Below are positions 30,491 through 36,489 of a DNA stretch of 64,000 nucleotides, one piece after another. A model generated the notes under the pieces. It saw only the letters and a list, made by a program, of their open reading frames with translations, was not told where the DNA came from and did not search any database. The translations under genes and the position numbers were made by a program. Position 1 is the first letter of the stretch. Each line of letters opens with the position of its first letter. Source of the stretch: Acutalibacter muris (GTDB taxonomy: Bacteria; Bacillota; Clostridia; Oscillospirales; Acutalibacteraceae); contig NZ_CP021422.1 in NCBI RefSeq assembly GCF_002201475.1, positions 992,001 to 1,056,000 of the forward strand, written 5' to 3'.

Positions 30491-32623
30491 CTATTGAGAC
30501 CCGCCCTTGGCATACTGCCCGGGCGTAATGCCTTCATATCGCTTGAAGGCCCGGATAAGCGCCCTCTGGTCCGCATAGCCGGAGCGCTCCGCGGCCTCCC
30601 GGACGCTGGCCCCCTCTGAGAGCAGCGTCTTGGCGTTCTCAAGCCTTACCTTGTGCAGCTCGTCCAGAAGCCCACAGCCGGCGGCGGCCTTATACTGGTG
30701 GCTGAGGGTGGAGAGGTTCATATTGAGATATCCGGCTATCATGCTGGCGTTTAAAGACTGATCTGTAAAATTCTCCCGGATGAACTCCCGGACATTTTTT
30801 GTCAGCTCCTGCTTTACCTGGTCGGGTCCCGGTCCCCAGAACACCGCCCCGAACAGGGACAGAAGCTCCTGCTCCAGCTCCGCCGCTCCCCGGCACTGCC
30901 TAAAGCGGCCCATGGCGGACTTAGCCCTCTCCTCGGGTACATAGGGCAGCAGCAGCTCCACCACGTCGGCATAGCGCCGGCGGATATTCTCCACGGGCAG
31001 GTCCCTGTCCGACAGGTCTTCCTTCAGTATCTTATTGAGGCCCCCGGCGGCGCGCCGCTCCTTTTTGGCGGAGAGGCACTCGGTGAGGGCCCGCTGGTGT
31101 GATAAGAAGTTCTTATAGGACTGTGCGCCTCCGTCCTCAGAGGGGCCTTTGGCGGGCCAGACGCCGCGCCTGCGCTGAAGACCCCAGAAGCTGTCGTGGC
31201 ACAGGGTCCTATAGACTGCCGACCAGGCCACAGGCGCGTCCTCAAGGCGGGTGTGGGTCCCGCTTATGTAGCAGCAAAGGGGAATTGAGAGGGAGCGCTC
31301 GGCGGCAAAATGTACCTCGGCGGCTTCGTCATAGCTCAGCTCCTTCTGCACCAGTACCGCCGCACAGGACCTGAGCTGTAGGCTTACCCCGCCGTTCTTA
31401 TCCAAAAGTATGTTGTCAAGGCCCTCCCTAAGCCGCTGGAGCAGGACCTCGGTTATGTCCGAATCCGCGGCCGGGACAAAGGCCAGCAGCTGGTATGGCT
31501 GGCCCTCCTCCAAAAACTGGGAAAGGGCCGAGGGGCTGTCGGAGAGCCCCTGCAAATACTGGCTGAGCTCCGACTGAACCACCTGAGTGGCAAGGCTCTC
31601 CTTTTCCTGGGCAAAGCTCACAAGGGCGGAGTCCAGCTCTGAGATGGAGCGGTATCCCGGCTTCGGGCCGTCGGTCCCCACATAGGGGAGGAGGCTCTTT
31701 ATGGGCCGGTAGGTGCGCCTGCTCCACAGCACGGCCAGCAGGACGCTGACCACCAGTATGACGGCTATCTCAAGGATTATATCCGTCCAGACTATGCGCA
31801 GCTCCTGATAGTATGCGTCCCGACGGGTGAGAAAGCCATAGCGCACGCCGCTGAGGCCGGACTGGTACTGGGAGTATACATACCGCTGGCCCTCAAGGTC
31901 CATCTCGCCGGAGCTGTCCTCGCTCCGGGCCATGAGCCCGCAGGCCTCGGGAGCCCGCTCGCCGCCGCAGATGAACTTATAGGCCTCGTCGGTGACAAAG
32001 GCCTCGAAGTCCTCGGAGTTCCAGCGGGAGAGGCTCTTGTCCAGCTGTATGACTATCCCCACACAGGACAGAAGCTCCCGGCGGCCGGAGTCGTACTGGC
32101 TGCGAAGCACCATTATCCATCCGCCGCCGCCGTTTTTATACACGGTGGTGATATGCTCTGATGTGCTGCTGCTGTCCAAAAGGGAATAAAAGCTGCTCCA
32201 GGGCAGCTGTAAGTCCCAGGAGAACAGCTCCGCCGACTCCGGGTGGTAGGTGCGCCGGTCGGTCACAAGGAAGCCGCTGTTGGCAAAGTAGCAGAACCCC
32301 CGGAAAAAGGCGGCGTTCTGGCCGATGGCCCGGGAAAGGGACTCGCTGAGGTCGCAAAGGCTGAAGAGCTCCTGAGGGGTTATGGCCTCCTTTTGGGAAA
32401 GGCGTGAGGCCAGGGCGTCCTCGGAGAATATTGACACCAGGTTCGCCGCGTGACCCAGGGTCTGGTCGATCTCCTGGCCCACGGACTGCATGGAGCTCTC
32501 CTGGTCCGCCATTATGGAGGCCTGCACCCGGCTCTCAAGCTGCCCGATGGTGAAAAAGGAGAGCAGCAGCGGCACAAGACAAACGCACAGATACGAGGCC
32601 AAAAACTGCTTATAGACTTTCAT
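30491..32623 (-). CDS. Membrane-bound AraC-family regulator with extracellular sensor domain
   Basis: 710 residues from ATG 32623. Membrane segment near 12-30, an extracellular sensing domain (about 30-255), second membrane segment near 260-285, a cytoplasmic linker, and a C-terminal AraC helix-turn-helix pair (about 610-710: YLNMNLSTLSHQYKAAAG and AAERSGYADQRALIRAFKRYEG). This is the one-component design found next to lplABC systems in Firmicutes; it most likely activates the adjacent sugar operon on binding an extracellular sugar or loaded binding protein. A longer 756-residue reading frame adds an unlikely N-terminus. Confidence 0.88.
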   Translation of the reverse strand: MKVYKQFLASYLCVCLVPLLLSFFTIGQLESRVQASIMADQESSMQSVGQEIDQTLGHAANLVSIFSEDALASRLSQKEAITPQELFSLCDLSESLSRAIGQNAAFFRGFCYFANSGFLVTDRRTYHPESAELFSWDLQLPWSSFYSLLDSSSTSEHITTVYKNGGGGWIMVLRSQYDSGRRELLSCVGIVIQLDKSLSRWNSEDFEAFVTDEAYKFICGGERAPEACGLMARSEDSSGEMDLEGQRYVYSQYQSGLSGVRYGFLTRRDAYYQELRIVWTDIILEIAVILVVSVLLAVLWSRRTYRPIKSLLPYVGTDGPKPGYRSISELDSALVSFAQEKESLATQVVQSELSQYLQGLSDSPSALSQFLEEGQPYQLLAFVPAADSDITEVLLQRLREGLDNILLDKNGGVSLQLRSCAAVLVQKELSYDEAAEVHFAAERSLSIPLCCYISGTHTRLEDAPVAWSAVYRTLCHDSFWGLQRRRGVWPAKGPSEDGGAQSYKNFLSHQRALTECLSAKKERRAAGGLNKILKEDLSDRDLPVENIRRRYADVVELLLPYVPEERAKSAMGRFRQCRGAAELEQELLSLFGAVFWGPGPDQVKQELTKNVREFIRENFTDQSLNASMIAGYLNMNLSTLSHQYKAAAGCGLLDELHKVRLENAKTLLSEGASVREAAERSGYADQRALIRAFKRYEGITPGQYAKGGSQ

Positions 32624-32665
32624 TATCCTTTGGGCCCTCCTTTTTGCAAGTTTTTTAATGTATCT

Positions 32666-32694
32666 ACTATACAGTAAAAACGTCAAAATTGCAA
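32666..32694 (-). promoter_or_regulatory. Promoter of the AraC-type regulator gene
   Basis: Minus strand TTGCAA (32694-32689), 17-base spacer, TATAGT (32671-32666), about 40 bases before the start codon. Confidence 0.6.
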
Positions 32695-32728
32695 GAATTT
32701 TCAACGGGAATATCAGGATTTTCCGGCC

Positions 32729-32758
32729 TTGACACCCTGCGCCCGCATATGGTACAAT
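32729..32758 (+). promoter_or_regulatory. Promoter of the leader-peptide/ABC exporter transcript
   Basis: TTGACA (32729-32734), 18-base spacer, TACAAT (32753-32758). Transcription would begin near 32,765, about 45 bases before the leader peptide start. Confidence 0.75.
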
Positions 32759-32808
32759 CATCGGGAAACCCTCAGGGATTATTATAATTTGGAAAGGAAG
32801 GGTAAGAT

Positions 32809-32865
32809 ATGAAAGTCTGCAAAGCTGGAACCGTACTCATCATCGGGAGGGTTATAAAGCTCTAA
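32809..32865 (+). CDS. Short leader peptide, 18 residues (MKVCKAGTVLIIGRVIKL)
   Basis: A complete tiny reading frame from ATG to TAA, preceded by a purine-rich ribosome site (GGAAAGGAAGGG) about 6-14 bases upstream and by its own promoter. It sits 33 bases before the start of an ABC exporter gene. Codons 12-15 overlap the left arm of a hairpin that competes with sequestration of the exporter's ribosome site. This is the layout of translational attenuators of antibiotic-response genes (compare ermC, and bmrB ahead of bmrCD). The peptide itself matches no leader that I recognise. Confidence 0.65.
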   Translation: MKVCKAGTVLIIGRVIKL

Positions 32866-32892
32866 GTCTTCCTCCCGCAAACTCAGGAGGAA
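32844..32892 (+). promoter_or_regulatory. Candidate translational attenuator with mutually exclusive hairpins
   Basis: Three short segments can pair in two exclusive ways. Segment 1 CGGGAGG (32844-32850, inside the leader) pairs with segment 2 CCTCCCG (32871-32877). Segment 2 also reads TTCCTCC (32869-32875) and pairs perfectly with GGAGGAA (32886-32892), which contains the exporter's ribosome site. A ribosome held at the leader stop codon (32863-32865) would cover segment 2 and free the ribosome site. No T-run follows, so control would act on translation, not termination. Confidence 0.55.
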
Positions 32893-32898
32893 TCTTCA

Positions 32899-34627
32899 TT
32901 GAACAAGAAAAATTTAAAACTGCTGCTCTCCTTTTACAGGCCCTATCGCGGCCTTTTCGCCGCAGACCTTATCTGCTCCCTGGCGGCGGCCGGCATAGCG
33001 CTGGCCGTACCGCTGGGGGTGCGTTACATAGCCGACACGCTGCTGGACGCGGGGGACTTTTCCCTTGTGCTCCGGGCTGGGCTGGCGCTGGCGGCGCTGG
33101 TGGCGGTCCAGGCGCTGTGCACATACTTCTATGACTATCAGGGGCACTATCTGGGCGCAAAGATAGAGCGCGATATGCGCGCCCGGATGTTCTGCCACTG
33201 CCAGCGGCTGCCTTTTTCCTATTATGACAGCCATACGGTGGGGGACCTGATGTCCCGCATAAGCAACGACACCCTGTCTCTGGCGGAGTTTTTTCACCAT
33301 GTGCCCGAGGACCTGCTGATAAATTCCGTCAAGCTGGCAGGGGCGGCGCTGATACTGCTTGCGGTGCACTGGCAGACCGCCTGTATCATATTGGCTTTCC
33401 TGCCGTTTATGACGCTGTTCACCATACATTTTAACAAAAAGATGAACATAGCCATGACAAATGCCCGGGAGAGCATGGGCCACATAAATTCTCAGGCCGA
33501 GGATTCTCTTTCGGGTATCCGGGTGGTACAGTCCTTCGCGGGCGAGAGGATCGAGAAGGAGAAATTTTCAAGGCTGAACCGACGGTTCCTGGAGGACCGC
33601 CGGGCGGGATATCAGAGCGAGAGCCGGCTGTATACCGGCATGGAGGTTTTCGCGGCGGCGATACCAATAGCGGTAGTGGTGTTTGGGGGGGCTTGCTCTC
33701 CTGCGGGGAAGCATGGCGATCTCCGACTTGCTGCTGTTCCTCTTGTATACCGGGTATTTCACCGGGCCGGTACAGAGCCTTGTAAACACCAGCCGTCTGC
33801 TCCAGGAGGGCCGCACCAGCTTCCGGCGCTACCGGGAGCTTATGGACACGCCGCCTGCCGTAAAAGATAAGCCGGAGGCGCAGGCCCCTGCAAGCGTAAG
33901 AGGAGACCTGGAGTTTCGCGGCGTAAGTTTCCGCTACGGCCAGGGGGAGGAGGTCTTCCGGGACCTGAACCTGACCGTCAGGGCCGGGGAATATGTGGCC
34001 CTGGTAGGCGCTTCGGGGGTGGGGAAGACCACTCTCTGCGCACTGCTCCCAAGGTTCTACGAGCCAAGGGAGGGCGCTGTGCTCCTGGACGGCAAAGACG
34101 TGCGGGACATACCTGTTGAAGTCCTGCGCAGGAGTATTGGAGTAGTACAGCAGGACGTGTACCTTTTTACCGGCACCATAGCGGAGAACATAGCCTACGG
34201 CCGTCCCGGCGCCGGGCGGAAGGAGATAATAGAGGCCGCAAAGCTTGCCGGGGCCGACGGGTTCATCCGCGAGCTGCCCGGCGGATATGACGCGGACATT
34301 GGCCCCCACGGGGTAAGGCTGTCCGGCGGCCAGCAGCAGCGCCTGTCCATAGCCAGGGTGTTCCTTAAGGATCCGCCGGTGCTCATACTGGACGAGGCCA
34401 CCAGCGCCCTTGATAACCACAGCGAGAAAGCTATCCAGCAGAGCCTGGAGCGCATAGCCGGACAGAGAACCACGCTGGTCATTGCCCACAGGCTTTCTAC
34501 GGTGCGCAATGCCGGGCGCATAGTGGTGCTGGACGAAAACGGGGTTTGTGAACAGGGGACCCACGAGGAGCTGATGGAGCTGGGCGGCGTGTACGCCGGG
34601 CTCTACAGAGCTTCGGAGGAAATATAG
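32899..34627 (+). pseudogene. ABC exporter half-transporter interrupted by a frameshift in a G7 tract
   Basis: One exporter gene read in two frames. 32899-33690 (TTG start, AGGAGG 8 bases upstream) gives the membrane domain; 33692-34627 gives the end of the membrane domain and the ATPase domain, with Walker A GASGVGKTT, signature [14 protein letters not shown], Walker B LILDEATSALD and H-loop AHRLS all intact. The break is at seven G residues, 33685-33691; with six Gs the two parts join as VVFGGLALLRGSMAIS in one 575-residue protein. Everything else looks functional, so this may be a recent mutation, a phase-variable tract or a sequencing error. Probably a homodimeric drug or peptide exporter. 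Confidence 0.85.
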
Positions 34628-34680: not shown

Positions 34681-36009
34681 TCAGTAGTGAAACCTCCTCC
34701 GTTTCCCGCCCAAAAATGCCAGCGTCACCACCGCCGCCATGACCTCGGCGGCCACGATGGACAGCCATATGCCGTCTATGCCCCAGATAAGGGGGAATAT
34801 CAGCACCGCCGCCACCTGGAACACCAGGGTCCGCAGGAAGGAGATAAGCGCCGAGGTGAGGCCGTCGTTCAGGGCTGTGAAGAAGGCCGAGCCGAATATG
34901 GCTATGCCGGAGAACAGGAAGGAGAAGGAATATATGCCAAAGGCCCCCACGGTCATGCGGAACAGGTCCGGGTCATAGCCCACGAATACAGCTGATAGAG
35001 GCCGGGCCAGCGCCTCGGCAAGGCCCAGCATGGCGGCGGAGGCGGAAAGTATTATAACTATACTCTTGCGGTACAGGCTTCTTAGTTCCTCCCTGCCGTC
35101 CGCGCCGAAGTGAAAGCTCACTACCGGGGCCACCCCGGTGGAATAGCCGATAAATATCGCCATGAAGATCATGCTGACGTACATCAGCACCCCATAGGCC
35201 GCCACACCGTCCTCCCCGGCGTAATGGAGGAGCTGGGCGTTATAGAGCATACCGACGATGGACATGGAGATATTGCTCATCAGCTCCGAAGAACCGTTGG
35301 TACAGGCCTTTAAAAGAGCTTTCCAGTCAAGGACGGTCCTGCAAAGGCGCAGGCGGCTGGAGTTCCTCCGGCCGAAGTAGAACAGCGGGATTATGCCCCC
35401 CAGCGATTGGCTTATAGCCGTGGCCGAGGCCGCGCCCGCAAGGCCGAAGGGCAGCACGGCGGTAAAAAGCGCGTCCAGCACCATGTTGGCCATCCCCGCT
35501 ATTACCGTCACCATAAGTCCTAGCTGGGGCCGCTCGGCGGTGATGAAAAAGCTCTGGAACTCGTACTGCAGCATTAAAGCGGGCAGCGCCGGCAGTATAA
35601 TGCGGGCATACAGCACGCAGTTTTCCAGCATTTCCCCCTTGGCCCCCAGCCAGACGGCAATGGGGCGGATAAAAATGAAGCCGAAGGCTCCAAGGACAAC
35701 GCCCAAAGCAACGGTCACATACACGAAAAGGGAGAACAACCGTCGTGCCCGTTCGCTGTCCCCCTCGCCCATGGTTCGGGCGATAAGGGCACTGCCGCCG
35801 GCGCCGAACATAAATCCCACAGTGCCCAGTATCATCAGTACGGGCATGATAAAGTTTACGGCGGCAAAGGGGGTCTTGCCCACAAAGTTAGACACGAAAA
35901 AGCCGTCCACCACGCCGTAGATTGAGGTAAACACCATCATTATAACAGAGGGCAGGGTGAAACGGAAGAGCTTTGAATATGTGAAACGGTCGGACAGTTG
36001 GATCTTCAT
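34681..36009 (-). CDS. MATE-family multidrug efflux transporter
   Basis: 442 residues, 12 predicted membrane segments in two six-helix halves; typical features are FTLPSVIMMVFTSIYGVVDGFFVSNFVG at the start and a PxxLMLQYEFQSFF-like helix near 140. MATE proteins export cationic drugs using a sodium or proton gradient. It lies 42 bases downstream of a MarR-type regulator on the same strand, so is likely controlled by it. Confidence 0.92.
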   Translation of the reverse strand: MKIQLSDRFTYSKLFRFTLPSVIMMVFTSIYGVVDGFFVSNFVGKTPFAAVNFIMPVLMILGTVGFMFGAGGSALIARTMGEGDSERARRLFSLFVYVTVALGVVLGAFGFIFIRPIAVWLGAKGEMLENCVLYARIILPALPALMLQYEFQSFFITAERPQLGLMVTVIAGMANMVLDALFTAVLPFGLAGAASATAISQSLGGIIPLFYFGRRNSSRLRLCRTVLDWKALLKACTNGSSELMSNISMSIVGMLYNAQLLHYAGEDGVAAYGVLMYVSMIFMAIFIGYSTGVAPVVSFHFGADGREELRSLYRKSIVIILSASAAMLGLAEALARPLSAVFVGYDPDLFRMTVGAFGIYSFSFLFSGIAIFGSAFFTALNDGLTSALISFLRTLVFQVAAVLIFPLIWGIDGIWLSIVAAEVMAAVVTLAFLGGKRRRFHY

Positions 36010-36051
36010 AAATTACCTCCCAAAAACGTGTGAAAAATGCGTATATAAAAG

Positions 36052-36489
36052 CTAAAGCTCCTTGATTTTTTCCCGAAGCGCGTCAAGGTACCGGCGGGTA
36101 AGGGACAGGTAAAGCTCACGCTCCTCCGGCAGCCAGGAGCCGATGATCTCATCCTCAATACGCATGAGCAGCATAACTGTGCCGTCGCAGAGCTCTCTGC
36201 CCTTCTCCGTCAGGCAGGCCCGCTTCTTACGCCCGTCCACAGACTCAAGATACAGCACCGCCTCCCGCTCCAGCTTCCGCAGGGCAGAGTTTACCGTCTG
36301 CTTGGGAAGGCCGGAAAGGGCGGCAATATTTTTAAGCGGGCACACTCCGTCGAACATACATATGGTGTATAACACATTCATAGCGCTGTCTGTCAGACCC
36401 AGCTTTAATGTGGCCTCATGGTAGACGGCCTCTGTCTCGCCGACGATAAGGTCTAAGCGTATCAGTTGTTCGTGTATGGCTTCAAGCAT
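36052..36489 (-). CDS. MarR-family transcriptional regulator
   Basis: 145 residues with the MarR winged helix: LKNIAALSGLPKQTVNSALRKLEREAVLYLESVDGRKKRACLTEKG at about residues 52-97. The protein should bind the palindrome in its own promoter and repress the regulator-MATE operon until a ligand appears (inferred from arrangement). Confidence 0.92.
   Translation of the reverse strand: MLEAIHEQLIRLDLIVGETEAVYHEATLKLGLTDSAMNVLYTICMFDGVCPLKNIAALSGLPKQTVNSALRKLEREAVLYLESVDGRKKRACLTEKGRELCDGTVMLLMRIEDEIIGSWLPEERELYLSLTRRYLDALREKIKEL

Follow-up and report, generated by a model that had tools for sequence, protein, structure and literature searches.

The question raised by this locus is whether a short leader peptide gene controls the translation of the ABC exporter gene that follows it. 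The window, which is the whole 64,000-nucleotide stretch of Acutalibacter muris DNA that was analysed, is part of one 3.8 Mb contig. The first-pass annotation had described a promoter, an 18-codon leader, ribosome sites, and three segments before the exporter, and had proposed a drug-induced translational attenuator. As shown in Table 1, all of these features were read directly at the coordinates claimed. The middle segment is able to pair with either neighbour, and the 1:2 and 2:3 pairings are mutually exclusive in the window; the last segment is the exporter's ribosome site (SD), as had been described. The GGAGG of segment 1 ends 12 nt ahead of the leader stop, and the leader has the xGRxxxx-stop form common to its relatives. 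By eye, a promoter similar to that of the window also lies ahead of the leader in L013 and L014.

Table 1. Positions of the leader, the three segments, and the exporter pieces in the window.
Feature	Position	Strand	Remarks
Promoter, TTGACA-18-TACAAT	32729..32758	+	TG before the -10; 11/12 consensus positions
Leader ribosome site, GGAAAGGAAGGG	32791..32802	+	Read from sequence; purine-rich sites in relatives
Leader ORF, MKVCKAGTVLIIGRVIKL	32809..32865	+	ATG 32809; 18 sense codons; TAA 32863-32865
Segment 1, CGGGAGG	32844..32850	+	SD-like; Gly-Arg in frame
Segment 2, CTTCCTCCCG	32868..32877	+	Anti-SD-like; partner of segment 1 or 3
Segment 3, GGAGGAA	32886..32892	+	Exporter ribosome site
Exporter frame 1	32899..33870	+	Start codon TTG 32899; ABC transmembrane domain PF00664
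Exporter frame 2	33683..34627	+	ATP-binding domain PF00005

The exporter is present from the TTG start as annotated, but its reading frame is interrupted by a frameshift in the genome of the window. The two pieces are in different frames, and the frame changes at about 33640-33700, in a region with a run of G. In the same-genus relatives, the exporter is one uninterrupted frame of 575-581 aa from TTG. The frameshift may be real or may reflect an error in sequencing. A related exporter (L173) contains PF00664 and PF00005 within one chain. The window pieces are MsbA-like and missed the NCBIfam curated cut-offs, which gene pieces could hardly reach. Judged by its domains, the window gene is an MsbA-like ABC exporter with a putative transport function. 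Directly downstream, on the opposite strand (34681-36489), there are genes for a MATE efflux protein and for a MarR-like regulator.

All 29 genus genomes searched have some exporter match, since paralogs are common. Orthologs with at least 57% identity and the start on the contig were found in 17 genus genomes, including that of the window; one further genus ortholog is interrupted by a contig end. The named relatives of the window include Acutalibacter, Neglecta, and Neglectibacter. The search upstream of homologous exporters that the first-pass annotation had suggested showed that the leader and the paired segments are conserved: a leader with an SD-like core lies ahead of 17/17 same-genus exporters (window included). 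In 14 of the 17, the end of GGGAGG and the leader stop are separated by exactly 12 nt, and the other three are altered forms. CCTCC and then the exporter GGAGG follow in 13 of the 14 strict cases; L026 keeps the strict spacing, but CCTTCC replaces CCTCC. L019 has CGGAGG at the same 12-nt spacing without CCTCC, and the spacings in L023 and L027 are 10 and 21. Beyond the genus, the strict form recurs in L048 and L049, and L054 has a shifted form with the pairing retained; L046, whose exporter is 65% identical, is without the leader element.

Further comparison used a set of 22 elements (20 exporters and 2 methyltransferases), which is without L029 and L055 (contig edge), same-genome duplicates, and L046, L056, and L057 (no leader). 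Purine-rich sites resembling that of the window precede the leaders of this set, and the start codon is TTG in all 22 main genes. At E up to 1, a covariance model built on 6 leaders recovered every element of the set except L019 (21/22, its training leaders among them), and gave no match in 12 paralog exporter loci or in L046. These paralogs (36-41% identical) also have no element by pattern. The absence from the 12 paralog loci and from L046 rules out a general feature of such ABC exporters.

The distance from GGAGG to the stop is 12 nt in 18/20 exporters, and that from the stop to the start codon is 27-42 nt in 19/22 elements. Such regular distances would also fit plain translational coupling, in which leader translation opens the SD or supplies terminating ribosomes without any inducer, and segment 1 may hold the ribosome by pairing with 16S rRNA. 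Coupling leaves unexplained the covariation of segments 1 and 2 and the kept C-terminus of one leader class, both described below, and we consider it improbable.

The layout is also found before other genes. The genome of the window contains a second element (G000:C1:808911-809014, minus strand), which lies outside the window and was found by a pattern search of the genus; it has the leader MKNKEFVNYTTPGRADIN and precedes a class I methyltransferase. The class- and order-wide scans yielded a general signature, GGAGGG, 11 nt, stop, CCCTCC, 5-15 nt, GGAGG. Of 289 phylum genomes, 3 matched a strict pattern; besides that of the window, these were one genome from the order and one from outside the class. 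The element outside the class has the leader MTKTFIVTTKIRRVTII before a protein resembling the second methyltransferase cluster. Looser patterns were matched in 40/391 class genomes and 39/394 order genomes, with some matches inside genes. The order-wide scan of 394 genomes gave 45 matches, versus 10 for the reversed control pattern, and a leader and a gene are present at 33 of the 45. Among 81 matches of a scan with the spacing left free, the stop stands directly before CCCTCC 18 times at spacer 14 and once at any other spacer; these 81 are about half of the matches listed, those omitted being mostly repeats and matches in G+C-rich genomes, and the counts are therefore lower bounds. Among viral contigs, 3 of 14 matches have such a leader (L215, L220, and L221), and the other 11 are without one. 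A loose pattern (ATGARA..GGGAGG..CCTCC), found in 61/300 family genomes, was rejected as mostly chance matches by eye. The model R2 had few members outside the genus and matched 16/250 genomes at E up to 0.1; on inspection, the matches in G000, G007, G008, G123, G152, G159, and G249 were judged real, and the nine other genomes were rejected as chance matches.

In total, 43 distinct elements were assembled, each having a purine-rich site ahead of the leader ATG and an ORF shortly downstream, with repeats of the same stretch counted once; L147 and L162 have a leader but no called ORF and were excluded. The genes behind the 43 elements form 12 BLAST clusters, or 11 if the truncated L184 joins its evident relatives. 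The layout precedes ten sequence clusters besides the exporters, mainly GNAT acetyltransferases and SAM methyltransferases. By kind, there are four clusters of GNAT acetyltransferases, three of SAM methyltransferases, the ABC exporters, a NAT_N/GNAT_C protein, a DUF4037 protein, and one protein without a Pfam match. L206 has no match in Pfam or PDB. Two of four GNAT proteins scanned (L139 and L154) have weak similarity, far below cut-off, to aminoglycoside 6'-N-acetyltransferase models, and when one of the acetyltransferases was searched against plasmids, 3 weak records resulted. These comparisons suggest that the window exporter may belong to a family of switches in this Clostridia order, which would also control acetyltransferase, methyltransferase, and other genes. 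The same switch before several kinds of putative drug-modifying enzymes and pumps suggests a shared sensing of stalled ribosomes.

Analysis of the leader peptides showed that 41/43 end in one of two forms, xR[V/A]TI[L/F]-stop or VWRVHAS-stop, in classes that were drawn up after the sequences had been seen. Class I contains 22 leaders under the rule xR[VAD][TS][ITAL][LFVIR]-stop. Class II contains 19 leaders (16 distinct with codons), which are short and typically end in RVWRVHAS-stop. L054 and L060 belong to neither class. The in-frame AGG (Arg) of the leaders is due to the search pattern, which imposes it. The residue two after this Arg is free of the search, and over the 43 leaders it is Thr in 20, His in 12, Arg in 4, Asp, Tyr, and Ser in 2 each, and Pro in 1. 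In class I, Thr occurs in 20/22 leaders with four codons (Thr or Ser is demanded by the class rule), and the terminal Leu in 14/22 with five codons; the spread over several codons indicates conservation of the amino acids themselves rather than of the bases. Within the class I peptides, the middle varies freely and the C-terminus is kept.

The class I Ile is ATA in 19/19 cases, versus 26% of the Ile codons in the downstream genes. The stops are TAA or TAG in class I and TAA or TGA in class II, and all 43 elements have C directly behind the stop. The ATA codon and the C after the stop might reflect a non-antibiotic signal, for example scarcity of a charged tRNA or slow termination, though the CCCTCC pairing would demand the C too. 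The downstream genes are by sequence of the acetyltransferase, methyltransferase, and exporter kinds, with no amino-acid genes among them, and such a signal is quite improbable. In the window-type exporter leaders, mainly K/R at position 2 and GR are kept, and the C-terminal peptide beyond GR is not conserved. The last-but-one residue is Ala, Gly, Ser, or Thr in 14/20 exporter leaders. Ala, Ser, or Thr at this residue favours stalling by chloramphenicol and linezolid, which is taken as a hint. One published abstract states that certain residues at a set position matter (PMC8987054).

The folding energy of the window RNA (141 nt) is ordinary when compared with shuffles (z = 0.50), and four window pieces gave z values of -1.21, -1.75, 0.13, and 0.11. 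Folding energy was rejected as proof, as the stability is within that of the shuffles; the case therefore rests on comparison. Energies within the shuffles are what a chance resemblance without function would give, and this explanation is contradicted by the conservation, the covariation, and the spread to other genes, which make it very improbable.

Covariation was examined at the flank pair, which is formed by the nucleotides that immediately precede GGAGG and follow CCTCC and is unconstrained in the class- and order-wide searches. The flank pair is paired in 33/43 elements, by A-U, G-C, U-A, and wobble pairs. After removal of near-duplicates, 26/36 are paired versus 15.1 expected (p = 0.00015). 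The off-register controls on these 36 elements were mildly raised as well in two cases (p 0.015 and 0.017) and not raised in the third; the next pair outward was not raised (p 0.31). Divided by leader length, the flank pair is paired in 16/22 long leaders (p = 0.043) and 17/21 short leaders (p = 0.021). The L210 and L211 methyltransferases, which are 84.7% identical, have A-U in one and G-C in the other. In a model alignment of 21 elements (19 exporters and 2 methyltransferases, without L019), 94.5% of the cells are paired and both-side changes are found in 5/7 pairs, above any slid version; this alignment was fitted to the structure and leans that way. A test of cis versus trans duplexes on 21 elements (without L014) gave p = 0.011 for segments 1:2, and for segments 2:3 it showed no covariation (p = 0.75). 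All covariation statistics ignore relatedness. With these cautions on the controls, the alignment, and the relatedness, covariation of the leader arm and the middle segment is shown in the aligned sequences, as the first-pass annotation had led one to look for.

The effect of a ribosome was simulated by placing it at each leader codon and folding the RNA downstream; p12 and p23 are the pairing of segments 1:2 and 2:3. Three zones were found over the 43 elements. With an early ribosome, 1:2 forms in the long leaders; with a mid-leader ribosome, 2:3 forms and the SD is shut; with a ribosome at the last three codons, the SD is free in both long and short leaders. Without a ribosome, the SD of the window is shut by the predicted hairpin (p23 0.99), and p23 is 0.85 in the short leaders. 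The window SD stays shut at all ribosome positions except the last two codons, where it is partly opened (0.25). In the long leaders without a ribosome, the mean p12 is 0.64 in the 43-element set and 0.59 in the 22-element set, and in the model this pairing would leave the SD open without a stall. The SD opening in the 22-element set is 0.23, 0.15, and 0.06 with the ribosome on the last codons, versus about 0.28 with an early one.

A possible mechanism is as follows. The leader would be translated from its own ribosome site. During normal passage of ribosomes, the CCTCC of segment 2 would pair with segment 3 and the exporter SD would be shut; in an empty leader, according to the predicted fold of the window, segment 2 would likewise close it. 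A ribosome held on the last codons or the stop would sit on segments 1 and 2, so that the exporter SD would be freed. The hold would probably be caused by a translation inhibitor acting together with the C-terminal residues. In elements whose stop abuts CCCTCC, the 1:2 hairpin has its centre at the stop and a length of about one ribosome footprint, so that both of its arms would lie under a ribosome parked there.

That the leader switches access to the SD is a well-supported prediction, because of the conservation, the covariation, and the lack of a terminator-like site in the window at 32500-33100. We infer the position of the ribosome, the inducer, and the induction itself, drug induction being suggested by the kinds of downstream genes. 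The element might be a translational attenuator whose probable trigger is a ribosome held at the leader end; we hold this view tentatively, with slightly less than even confidence. The masking of the middle segment by a held ribosome, as first proposed, fits the window fold and the elements in which the stop abuts CCCTCC. It is at odds with 6 of the 18 exporters having CCTCC, in which this motif lies 10-36 nt beyond the stop, and the long leaders on average open the SD with an early ribosome too.

A CCTCC at least 10 nt past the stop means that the late hold cannot apply as such to those 6 exporters, and an early stall, as in ermB or trp, therefore has to be weighed. A ribosome near the leader start would let segments 1 and 2 pair and the SD open; finishing ribosomes would hide segment 1, and segment 2 would shut the SD. 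The covariation of segments 1 and 2 and the distant segment 2 of the 6 exporters are consistent with this. So is the simulation of the long leaders, in which a ribosome at least 11 codons from the end gives a mean p12 of about 0.8-0.9 (0.5-0.85 in the 22-element set) and a freer SD, as well as the commonest residues at class I positions 2-4, which are K, then N/H/Y, then T/S. However, in the short leaders, which have about 12 codons, only the first two offer space for such a stall, the window fold keeps the SD shut with an early ribosome, and it is the C-terminus, not the middle, of the class I peptides that is kept. An early stall is rather unlikely.

The late hold could also be extended to the whole set of elements. 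One ribosome-sensing module, with two C-terminal peptides and the stop centred in a ribosome-long hairpin, might have been recruited order-wide before putative resistance genes that form eleven sequence clusters and represent about six kinds of protein, and might read a ribosome parked at the stop via an arrest peptide that would be new (RVTI[L/F]-stop or VWRVHAS-stop). We regard this wider reading as possible but doubtful. If true, one sequence signature would mark inducible genes of gut Clostridia that are nameless in standard annotation, and would point to new drug- or termination-dependent arrest peptides. It would also predict which commensal acetyltransferases, methyltransferases, and exporters respond to ribosome inhibitors.

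Several known systems are similar in part. In the cat-86 type, one hairpin shuts the SD and a ribosome on the leader opens it, as proposed here; unlike the present element, this type is not known to have a second pairing partner inside the leader. The erm-type attenuators (ermC and ermB) also have a short upstream leader and hairpins sharing a segment, with the SD or start shut until a stall (PMC11264731, PMC10219788). The present element differs from them in having no erm gene, in its SD/anti-SD/SD segments, in its peptides, and, in the wider set of elements, in a stop that abuts the shared segment. For the cplR uORF of Clostridioides difficile, translational attenuation is reported with a clostridial leader and an anti-SD element that shuts the SD (PMC10201436). 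The cplR uORF differs in its three-codon uORF (MRI), its ABC-F gene, and an SD inside a U-tract transcription terminator; a cplR-type uORF was ruled out here by the 18-codon leader and the lack of a terminator-like site. The bmrB leader of bmrCD in Bacillus subtilis likewise precedes an ABC multidrug exporter, which is induced by ribosome inhibitors (PMC4191407), but acts by transcription attenuation via a terminator inside its coding sequence. Transcription attenuation of the bmrB type was ruled out on the same lack of a terminator-like site. By analogy, the predicted design is like that of the erm-type attenuators and the cplR uORF, and unlike that of bmrB.

A described RNA family was rejected, as no Rfam 15 family reached the gathering score over the elements in the window and 17 element loci; the two Rfam hits in the 17 loci, to a tmRNA and a group II intron, lie outside the elements. 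The leader peptide strings were not found among the best-ranked literature matches, and the matches gratil (sea urchin) and rratil were rejected as chance words. No description of the element was found in the listed titles and abstract openings on leaders with GNAT genes, gut-bacterial attenuators, bmrCD leaders, and Clostridia uORFs, subscription papers and preprints being outside this search; Acutalibacter combined with leader peptide gave no literature match.

Some minor observations were made at other loci. In L119-L123, RNHCP-like genes follow a similar arrangement (leader, GGGAGG arm, CCTCCC arm, and GGAGG). The L119 gene matches PF12647, an RNHCP domain, and in L120-L122 the first arm is just past the leader stop, which gives a different geometry. 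In G1024, a repeat at four places (GGAGGCAAG..TAAGCCTCCC..GGGGAGG) matches the pattern, and its L183 copy failed the filter for the 43 elements. A tmRNA gene (L175, 367-718) and part of a group II intron (L160, 2372-2447) are near elements, and may hint at mobile DNA.
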